Source of the DNA: Verrucomicrobiia bacterium
GTDB lineage: Bacteria; Verrucomicrobiota; Verrucomicrobiia; Limisphaerales; JAEYXS01
Length of the DNA: 64,000 bases
Direction of reading: 5' to 3'
Assembly (NCBI GenBank): GCA_036405135.1
Contig: DASWYF010000003.1
Coordinates: 1-64,000, forward strand
Part shown: positions 7,925-52,945 of the stretch, piece after piece
How positions within the stretch are numbered: the first letter of the stretch is position 1
Layout: each line of letters begins with the position of its first letter
Made by a program: the position numbers and the translations under genes
Notes under the pieces: model-generated
Database searches by the model: none
The model's input: only the letters and a program-made list of their open reading frames with translations
What the model was told of the DNA's origin: nothing

Positions 7925-8020
7925 GTTTTTTTTGCCACGGATTTGCACGGATGGAACACGGATGGAGAGACTGTGATCCATACGTTTAAATCATATTGAT
8001 GCTGCCTTCATACTTGAACA

Positions 8021-50073: not shown

Positions 50074-51126
50074 ATGAGCACAGCAGCAGTCATCGCGAAT
50101 AATTTTCCCAAGCTTCACAACGCCATGTGGCCCGGCCTCGTCGGCAAGGGCAGTCCCGGCGCGGAACCGTTCATCGATCTGGATACGATGCTGGACTTTA
50201 CGGCCAAGGCCGATGTGGGCGGTATCAAGTTCGATGGCGTGGACCTCTTCCTCTACAACCCGCATACGGACATCGACATCGACGACAGTGGCATCAAGAA
50301 GCTCGCAGACAAAATCAAGTCCAAGGGCCTCGTGGTCGGTTCCGTGGTGGCGCCGGTTTGGTTCGATGCCTCTGCTGGTGGTGATGAGAAAGCGCGTGCG
50401 AATTTCGTGACGCACGTGAAGAAGGCTGTACGCATCGCCAGCAAGCTTCGCGACCTCGGTGTGCGTCCTTACGGCGTGGTGCGTATCGACAGCGCCACGG
50501 GCGTGACGGCTTGGGATAAAGATCCGAAAGGCACGACGAAGCTCATCGCGCAGACGTTCCGTGAAGCGGGCAAGATCGCGAAGGGCGAAGGCGAACGCCT
50601 CGCCGCCGAAGGCGAAATCTGTTGGGGCGGTATGCATTCGTGGAAGCACATGGTGAATTTGCTGGAGATGGTGGATATGCCGAAGGTGGTCGGCTTCCAG
50701 GCGGACATGTCCCACACGCATCTCTACACGCTCGGTTACAATGCTGAGGCGCATCGTATCGTGCCGAAGAAGTACAATTACGAGCCTGCTGAATTTCACA
50801 AAGCGATGACGAAGTTGACGGATGCGCTCCGTCCGTGGACGATCGATTTCCATGTGGCGCAGAACGACGGTTCCGTGTTCGGCTCCGGTGATCACGAGAA
50901 GACGGGTCGCCACTGCCTCGCCACGGATCCCAAGGGCAAGCTGAACATTACGCGTGATTCCGGATATTGGCTGCGCGACAAGGCCGGCAAGGTCACCAAG
51001 AAGATGAAGCACATCTGCTGGGACGGTTGCATGTTCCCGAACGAAGTGCTGAACAAGCAGCAGACCTGGAATGACATCCTCGCGGCGATGATTGAAGTGA
51101 GGAACAACCACGGCTGGAAAGCTTGA
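50074..51126 (+). CDS. TIM-barrel (sugar isomerase/epimerase-like) protein
   Basis: The 350-residue cytoplasmic protein appears to be an alpha/beta barrel of the xylose-isomerase-like superfamily. Strand ends with possible metal ligands occur at [44 protein letters not shown] and [19 protein letters not shown], the last two with His, Asp and Glu. Such enzymes isomerise or epimerise sugars or inositol derivatives. A Gfo/Idh oxidoreductase gene follows in the same direction after an inserted GxxExxY gene, so the two probably act together on a polyol. The exact substrate is unknown. Confidence 0.72.
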
Positions 51127-51136
51127 TGAGGCGGGA

Positions 51137-51168
51137 ATAGCCGCAAAAAGGCGCAAAAGGCGCAAAAA
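51137..51168. repeat. left 32-bp inverted repeat of the GxxExxY cassette
   Basis: This arm consists of ATAG plus three CGCAAAA-type units and ends in an A-run that merges with the ATG of the GxxExxY gene. Its reverse complement matches 51570-51601 at 31 of 32 positions (a single G/A difference). The tandem short units inside each arm suggest a binding site or nuclease target rather than an ordinary IS terminal repeat. Confidence 0.9.
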
Positions 51169-51564
51169 ATGAAAGACCGTGTATTTGAGCTTTGCGATAT
51201 GGTACGTCAGACGGGCTATGCAGTTCATAGTTATCACCGTCACGGACATGTTGAAAAGATCTACGAAAATGCATTGGTCAATCGTTTGCGCAGACAAGGT
51301 TTGCAAGTTGAACAACAGCATCCTTTGCCGGTGTTTGATGAGGATGGGACCTTGTTAGGTGATTTTTACGCTGATTTGCTTGTGGAAAGAATACTTGTTG
51401 TTGAAATCAAAGCGGTCCGGGCGTTTGTAGACGAGCATACTGCTCAAGTGCTTGGTTATCTGCGTTCGGCCCGTTTGGAACATGGTTTATTGGTGAATTT
51501 TGGGGCGCCAAAATTCGCCATCAAGAAGTACGCACTCTCAAATCCTGAACTACAAAACTTTTAG
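51169..51564 (+). CDS. GxxExxY-family protein, PD-(D/E)XK-like
   Basis: The 131-residue protein carries the family signature G26HVEKIY32. It also has a PD-(D/E)XK-like nuclease core: D69 (GDFYADLLVERI), E79-I-K81, and Q93 in the helix TAQVLGYLRSA. This fits PF13366 (PDDEXK_3); biochemical function is not established. The gene is bounded by nearly perfect 32-bp inverted repeats, one arm touching its ATG and the other beginning 6 bp after its stop. It splits the TIM-barrel and Gfo/Idh genes, which are otherwise collinear. It is probably a transmissible or self-protecting nuclease cassette; mobility is inference. Confidence 0.88.
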   Translation: MKDRVFELCDMVRQTGYAVHSYHRHGHVEKIYENALVNRLRRQGLQVEQQHPLPVFDEDGTLLGDFYADLLVERILVVEIKAVRAFVDEHTAQVLGYLRSARLEHGLLVNFGAPKFAIKKYALSNPELQNF

Positions 51565-51569
51565 CCCTG

Positions 51570-51601
51570 TTTTTGCGCCTTTTGCGCTTTTTTGCGGCTA
51601 T
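51570..51601. repeat. right 32-bp inverted repeat of the GxxExxY cassette
   Basis: This arm is the reverse complement of 51137-51168 with one mismatch. It starts 6 bp after the GxxExxY stop and ends 9 bp before the ATG of the Gfo/Idh gene. No target-site duplication was seen in the bases flanking the two arms (ending GCGGGA on the left, starting CATTAA on the right). Confidence 0.9.
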
Positions 51602-51610
51602 CATTAAATT

Positions 51611-52759
51611 ATGGCTAAGAAACAACTTCGTATCGGTTTGATCGGTTACAGCTTCATGGGGCGCGCCCACAGCAATGCGTTCCATCAGGTGAATCATTTC
51701 TTCCCCTCCAGCTACGAGCTCGTGCCGCAGGCGGTGTGCGGTCGCGATGCGGCGAAGGTGCAGGAGTTTGCCGACAAGTGGGGCTATAAGAGCATTGAGA
51801 CGGATTGGAAGAAGATGATCGAGCGCGATGATATCGACGTGATCGACATCGCCACGCCGAACAACATGCACGCCGAACAGGCCATCGCCGCTGCCAAGGC
51901 GGGCAAGATGATCCTGTGCGAGAAGCCGCTGGGCCTGAACTCCAAGGAAGCGGAGAAGATGCTCAAGGCCATCGAGAAGGCGGGCGTCGCGAACATGGTG
52001 TGGTATAACTACCGCCGCTGCCCGGCGGTCGTGCTCGCGAAAAACATCATCGATTCCGGCAAGCTCGGTCGCATTTTCCATTACCGCGCGAACTTCCTTC
52101 AGGACTGGACGATCAATGCGGATCTACCACAAGGCGGCACGGGTCTCTGGCGCTTGGATGCCAAGGTCGCCGGTTCCGGCGTGACGGGTGACTTGCTCGC
52201 GCACTGCATCGACACGGCGCTCTGGCTCAATGGCGGTATCAAAGACGTGAGCGCCTTGACCGAGACGTTCGTGAAAGAGCGCAAGCACAACCTCACGGGC
52301 AAAGTCGAGAAGGTAAGCATCGATGACGCTTGCCTGTTCCATTGCCATTTCAACAACGGTTCACTCGGTTTGTTCGAGTCCACCCGTTACGCACGCGGTC
52401 ACAAGGCACTCTACACCTTCGAGATCAATGGCGAGAACATGTCCCTGAAGTGGGACTTGCATGATTTGCACCGCCTGCAGATTTTTGATTACACGGACGA
52501 GAGCCAGGAACGCGGCTGGAAGTCCGTTCACGTCTCCGATGGTGATCATCCGTACTGCGGCAACTGGTGGGTGCCGGGTCTGCAACTCGGCTACGAACAC
52601 AGCTTCATCCATGCGATGGTGGAGTTCGTCAAAGGTCTGGAAAGCGGCAAGGGCTGCAAGCCGGACTTCAAGGATGGTCTCGCGGCAGACTATGTCGTGG
52701 ACGCCGTGCTTGCTTCCGCCAAGTCGAAGAAGTGGGTGAAGGTGAAGCAGGCGAAGTGA
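51611..52759 (+). CDS. Gfo/Idh/MocA family oxidoreductase
   Basis: The 382-residue protein has an N-terminal Rossmann fold with [17 protein letters not shown] (~7-23) and the conserved CEKPLGL lysine-proline motif near residue 106, the site of proton transfer in the family. A C-terminal alpha/beta domain contains [28 protein letters not shown]. It probably oxidises a sugar or inositol using NAD(P). It follows the TIM-barrel gene and the inserted GxxExxY gene, which suggests one transcription unit, and is followed by a terminator. Confidence 0.9.
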
Positions 52760-52799
52760 TTCGCTGCTGAGTTCAAAGTTTAAGGTTTAAAGTTCAAAG

Positions 52800-52837: not shown

Positions 52838-52945
52838 GGAGTGCTGCGACTTGGCGCAGCTTTCACACCGAGGCGGCTTGACGTCTCGATTCGACGCGTC
52901 AAGCCGCGTCGGCGGAAAGCGGAGTCAAGCCTCCGCACTCCAAAA
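52834..52945. repeat. nested palindromic element
   Basis: An outer 11-bp pair (52834-52844 with 52935-52945, TTTTGGAGTGC and its complement) encloses an inner perfect pair (GCGGCTTGACG at 52873-52883 with 52897-52907). The middle carries further imperfect pairings. The outer ends resemble the GCTGCGACT theme of the hairpins beside rluE. No protein is encoded. Confidence 0.7.

Follow-up and report, generated by a model that had tools for sequence, protein, structure and literature searches.

What kind of unit is a gene for a small nuclease-like protein that is enclosed, with almost nothing to spare, by two inverted copies of one short repeat? The question is raised by a locus in the window, the whole stretch of 64,000 nucleotides of a Verrucomicrobiia contig that was analyzed here, and an earlier note, made by reading the letters, had described this locus as a minimal cassette in which a single nuclease gene is combined with sites of its own. 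The sequence and an inverted-repeat comparison define the left arm, ATAGCCGCAAAAAGGCGCAAAAGGCGCAAAAA (51137–51168, plus strand), which consists of three CGCAAAA heptamers and abuts the ATG, and the right arm (51570–51601, minus strand), which is an inverted copy of the left. Each arm is 32 nt long, the two are 97% complementary (31/32) and 401 nt separate them. The match at 31 of 32 positions and the left arm running into the ATG had been claimed in the earlier note and proved correct, the open reading frame starting at 51169, but the right arm begins 5 bases past the stop codon and not 6. The CGCAAAA-type units were also described correctly and can be sharpened to three copies per arm at steps of 10 and 9 nt, with 2–3 nt between copies. 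An AAAAGG stretch of the left arm lies before the ATG, and the ribosome-binding site may thus be placed inside the arm. Within the window, the 26-nt core of the arm occurs only at the two cassette arms, and it occurred in none of 100 dinucleotide shuffles (0 in 100).

Host genes border the insertion site on both sides, a xylose-isomerase-like TIM barrel (PF01261) upstream on the left (50074–51126, plus strand) and a Gfo/Idh/MocA oxidoreductase downstream on the right (51611–52759, plus strand). The window gave no Rfam match, and the cassette lies between two protein genes, not in an rRNA helix. The enclosed gene (51169–51564, plus strand) was characterized by its open reading frame, profiles, alignment and a structural model, and it encodes a GxxExxY, or PDDEXK_3, protein of 131 amino acids with D69, E79-x-K81 and Q93-x3-Y97. 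The protein matched TIGR04256 (E 1.9e-32, 112.1 bits, cut-off 35) and PF13366 (E 3.8e-29, 101.8 bits, cut-off 22). In the profile search, no known transposase was found in the element, PF13366 being the sole family matched.

Residues D69, K81 and Q93 were invariant among 36 homologues, E79 was conserved in at least 90% of them and Y97 was nearly invariant; this conservation bears out the earlier assignment of D69, E79-x-K81 and Q93 to the PD-(D/E)XK type. The spacing Q-x3-Y is a RecB/Cas4 motif. The model of the protein (pLDDT 92.3, pTM 0.85) has a PD-(D/E)XK core, its top structural match was the Cas4-like SSO0001 (Z 9.5), and AdnA and lambda exonuclease were among its top Foldseek matches. 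A search by sequence found no homologue in the PDB. On the strength of the model, we predict with confidence that the window protein is a RecB/Cas4-like PD-(D/E)XK nuclease. Because the set of catalytic residues is conserved, the alignment implies selection for this predicted activity.

Enclosed genes and the grammar of their arms

The source genome contains six PF13366 genes. In five of them, inverted repeats flank the gene closely, and the unit differs from gene to gene (CACGGAG, CACAGAT, AACAGAG, the CGCAAAA of the window, and CACRGAT); the sixth encodes a longer protein and has no enclosing repeats. The family was present in 69 of 145 genomes of the phylum. We compared 98 PF13366 genes, most of them from this phylum sample, using a flank inverted-repeat score with thresholds of at least 16 and at least 20. 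The median score was 22 for the 98 genes and 10 for pairs of flanks taken from different genes. At the lower threshold, 73 of the 98 genes were enclosed, as against 6.8% of the cross-pairs, 9 of 97 shifted controls and 14 of 646 ordinary genes of the source genome. At the higher threshold, the counts were 57 of 98 and 3 of 646, and two of these three ordinary genes represent other dispersed repeats. A chance inverted repeat at the window cassette was ruled out by the shuffles, the cross-paired flanks and the ordinary-gene controls. The search of the phylum for repeat-flanked PF13366 genes, which the earlier note had proposed, thus found inverted repeats around 73 of 98, and together with an arm type that follows the clade and a background of 14/646, this result strongly supports the reading of one nuclease gene with its own sites. 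On the other hand, 25 of the 98 genes had no arms at the threshold used, which counts against the explanation that we favor below. Long dispersed repeats of the GAGGCGGCTTGACGCCTCGA and CGTGCCGTTAGGCACGAAAGATTCATAGCGGCGGCTTT types also flank genes in inverted orientation (C20:85998-86558 and C20:262306-262806), and such repeats were noticed by eye at about 52865–52945 of the window.

Genes of the IVP family (PF05635) were enclosed by inverted repeats too, 22 of 34 with a score of at least 16, and their arms are built from units such as GTTGAAA, TTAGGC and AATGATG. The arms of GxxExxY genes are heptamer triplets, with spacers of 1–3 nt in 116 of 128; the median number of mismatches among the three heptamers of an arm was 1, compared with 5 in shuffled arms. 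The heptamer unit varies among cassettes and matches between both arms of one cassette. Tandem CRCNNA or CAGGA units were present in 44 of 57 GxxExxY arms, versus about 1.2 of 57 in shuffles, and in 1 of 22 IVP arms (Fisher p 2e-9 against the GxxExxY arms). GxxExxY and IVP cassettes have a common layout and a distinct arm code. In the source genome, the PF05635 genes L121-L126 are intergenic and enclosed by inverted short tandem units, with a unit that differs per cassette. A solo IVP-type repeat, GTTCAAAGTTTAAGGTTTAAAGTTCAAAG, lies in the window at 52771–52799, 3′ of the MocA gene and right before a terminator-like hairpin.

Protein identity correlated with arm similarity (Mantel r 0.43, 0/2000 permutations), and simple co-inheritance of gene and arms may explain part of this correlation. 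Among cross-phylum relatives, which were searched with a single protein as query, those at 58–69% identity (in Verrucomicrobiota, Planctomycetota and Hydrogenedentes) had mostly GCC(A/G)CRAAA-type arms, two having the GCCGAAAA arm variant and two no detectable arms, and a clade at 35–46% identity, from Chloroflexi and others, had mostly ACAGGAT arms. Genome G173 carries, at the same site, a cassette with 58% protein identity in which CGC is replaced by CAC in both arms; it may represent either the inherited insertion or a second one. Judged from these sequences, arm type tracks protein phylogeny across phyla. A protein-to-heptamer code of DNA recognition is predicted, for which dozens of protein-heptamer pairs are at hand.

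Insertion sites, gene-less forms and strand orientation

Mobility had been one of the suggestions of the earlier note. Within the same genus, the orthologous site of the window cassette was empty in G002, that of the sufB-sufC cassette was empty in both G001 and G002, and that of the L001 cassette was empty in G001. These empty sites, the spread across phyla and the scattered gene-less copies described below support mobility indirectly. The empty and filled intergenic sites are too diverged to be aligned for a target-site duplication, and in these highly diverged spacers no such duplication was seen. Nor was a transposition intermediate seen. The GxxExxY copy at sufB-sufC (L005:1501-1791) differs by a one-base frameshift from its intact relative L266 (G172) and is probably a pseudogene. 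No recent within-genome copy of the gene was seen: same-genome GxxExxY pairs had a median identity of 39% and a maximum of 83%. The lack of recent copies and of an intermediate weighs against the explanation favored below. Recent amplification of the gene within a genome was rejected, such pairs being as divergent as any, and phage cargo was rejected as well, with no phage match and six weak plasmid matches.

The arm is also found without the gene. The source genome holds about 19 further copies of the arm of the window cassette, with the consensus ATGGCCGCAAAAAGGCGCAAAAGGCGCAAAA, just beyond which the information drops to background, and only 1–2 of these copies have a possible inverted partner. 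In the window, GCCACGGATTTGCACGGATGGAACACGGAT (7934–7964, plus strand) is a solo arm that belongs to a different unit family; it abuts a stop codon on its 3′ side and has no nearby inverted partner. Genome G124 contains about 10 short hairpins in which the CACGAAA arms of its cassette enclose unrelated loops, and G093 has several. At the thrS site, the source genome has a cassette, and gene-less doublets built from three different units are found there in three other genera. Overall, gene-less forms outnumber cassettes. The occurrence of the repeats without a gene, which the earlier note had set against its own reading, is common in the literal sense. The notion that the sites are exclusive to the gene does not survive, and the idea of an element that exists both autonomously and in gene-less form is not refuted by it. 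The solo families ACAGGAT and CACGAAT have no matching cassette in the source genome today, which also counts against our favored explanation.

An origin of the gene-less hairpins by internal deletion was rejected, as the loops are, by eye, unlike the gene. A nested gene-less element (C22:141825-141971) consists of a CACGAAT hairpin within a CACAGAT doublet. Upstream of thrS (L002, L269, L272, L274), a short leader ORF rich in Thr codons (ACC ACG ACA ACG ACG) is followed by a terminator-like hairpin. The two likely form a thrS attenuator that is common across genera, and the elements are inserted directly after it.

The solo arms are oriented along replication, for which GC skew serves as a proxy of the leading strand. 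In 1.6 Mb of the source genome, 51 of the 54 solo arms with a clear GC skew follow the skew (p = 3e-12), which differs from the 58% of genes that do so (p = 5e-9). The strand of the neighboring gene was rejected as the source of this orientation, the association being weak (65/107). In the complete 6.1-Mb chromosome of G093, the strand switches in blocks: every one of the nine solos located at 0.63–3.79 Mb lies on the minus strand and every one of the nine at 4.26–6.10 Mb on the plus strand, 16 of the 18 agreeing with the sampled GC skew. By eye, the CACGAAA solos of G101 point both ways around 3.1 Mb and 4.76 Mb, in contrast to the clear-cut blocks of G093.

A favored explanation and its rivals

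We consider it reasonably probable that the cassette belongs to a selfish, RAYT/REPIN-like system of dispersed repeats, of which it is the form with a gene, and that this system is built on an unrelated nuclease of a type not known from such elements. The small RecB/Cas4-like PD-(D/E)XK nuclease would recognize the three-heptamer arm, and two inverted arms would be the ends of the element, placed around either the nuclease gene, as in the cassette, or a short arbitrary loop, as in the gene-less hairpin, with single arms left, or inserted, at additional sites. The enzyme would act on arms that are present as hairpins or at forks and would spread gene-less forms in trans, each insertion being tied to one strand of the fork. 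Horizontal transfer would account for most of the spread of the cassette itself, with one distinct copy per arm type. Of this picture, the layout, the coupling of arm type to protein, the empty sites, the gene-less forms, the strand orientation and the conservation of the catalytic residues were observed, and the fold was predicted with confidence; that the GxxExxY nuclease recognizes and cleaves the arms and moves them is what we infer.

The arms could instead work in RNA, and the earlier note had mentioned a stem that loops the gene out of a transcript. The arms would pair in the operon transcript and RNase III would cut the stem, so that the gene is removed and an insertion between co-transcribed genes is harmless. 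The sense RNA does fold into a long stem formed by the two arms (z -6.25), which makes such a structure possible, and the IVP genes, known from rRNA intervening sequences that are cut by RNase III, share the layout (PMC4990558). However, arm mismatches that keep a G-U pair are not in excess (78 vs 95, p = 0.22), solo arms are conserved without a pairing partner, and a stem needs neither three equal heptamers nor alignment with replication. Because there is no G-U preference and the solos persist partnerless, we favor recognition at the level of DNA and regard the RNA stem as unlikely. Recognition of DNA could also belong to a third party, for example a Y1 or other recombinase acting in trans that owns the arms, with the GxxExxY and IVP proteins as captured passengers or regulators. 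Such an owner would fit the single layout of two unrelated protein families, the excess of gene-less forms over cassettes and the strand bias, which is typical of single-strand transposition (PMC6006769). Passengers would not, however, enforce what is seen, namely that either protein family has an arm grammar nearly all its own and that, from phylum to phylum, the arms change with the GxxExxY clade; this ownership seems improbable to us.

It is also conceivable that the system is domesticated: the arms would be signals with a set orientation on the chromosome, Chi-like marks for processing, replication or repair that the RecB-like nuclease reads, and a host use would keep the gene. The strong alignment with replication, the conserved solo arms, the RecB-type Q-x3-Y and the nearest folds (Cas4, AdnA and lambda exonuclease) are in line with such a use. 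We nevertheless find it very unlikely, given the patchy presence, the empty sites within the same genus, the spread across phyla, the frameshifted copy (L005 vs L266) and the many arm families within one genome.

Comparison with known systems

Turning back to the selfish dispersed-repeat system, we found no published description of GxxExxY arms in the open-access literature. Apart from PF13366, a family of proteins rather than a system, every known family that we compared has one or more defining features that the cassette lacks. With the RecB/Cas4-like nucleases SSO0001, AdnA and lambda exonuclease, the window protein shares the fold of its model, the D, the E-x-K and the Q-x3-Y, but it is a minimal, stand-alone protein of 131 amino acids without a helicase or CRISPR partner. 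The STRR of heterocystous cyanobacteria are likewise intergenic short tandem repeats that can form hairpins. Their repeat unit is also a heptamer, but the STRR heptamers are contiguous, whereas the arm units are spaced by 1–3 nt, number three per arm, are tied to a nuclease gene and occur outside cyanobacteria.

Within 23S rRNA, the four-helix IVP/S23 genes are known from intervening sequences that RNase III cuts (PMC4990558). These sequences resemble the cassette in having one small ORF between inverted repeats, within about 430–470 bp, and in being patchy and horizontally acquired (PMC4990558); the IVP genes of the source genome share this layout and are intergenic. The cassette differs from the 23S rRNA sequences in its intergenic position, its protein fold, its arm grammar and its dispersed gene-less copies.

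In RAYT/REPIN systems, the nuclease genes occur as single copies that diverge from one another, and every gene has its own repeat family of doublets and singlets (PMC3116915). The likeness extends to divergent single-copy nuclease genes beside their own repeats, inverted doublets with variable loops, singlets, intergenic location and a link to the replication fork (PMC3116915, PMC6006769). The dispersed gene-less inverted doublets, represented here by the hairpins of G124 and G093, correspond in how they work and no further. The RAYT enzyme is HUH-Y1, whereas the window protein is, by its model, PD-(D/E)XK, with PF13366 as its only match; a REP is a GTAG-tagged palindrome, whereas the window arms are heptamer direct repeats without GTAG. 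Moreover, the arms enclose the nuclease gene tightly, and singlets predominate in the source genome. Because divergent single-copy nuclease genes with their own doublets and singlets mirror RAYT/REPIN, and the enzyme and repeats are unrelated to it, we propose an independent system of this kind. The chances are about even that it constitutes a new class of mobile or dispersed element, in which a stand-alone RecB/Cas4-like nuclease mobilizes heptamer-triplet hairpins at forks through a readable recognition code and the IVP genes form a parallel class with another code. The proposal would link a common protein family of unknown role to an intergenic repeat class for which we found no description, would suggest what GxxExxY and intergenic IVP proteins do, and would give a replication-oriented repeat family a candidate enzyme. 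Should the proposal hold, the system would work in a known way, that of RAYT/REPIN, with an enzyme, sites and an arm grammar that are not of a known kind.
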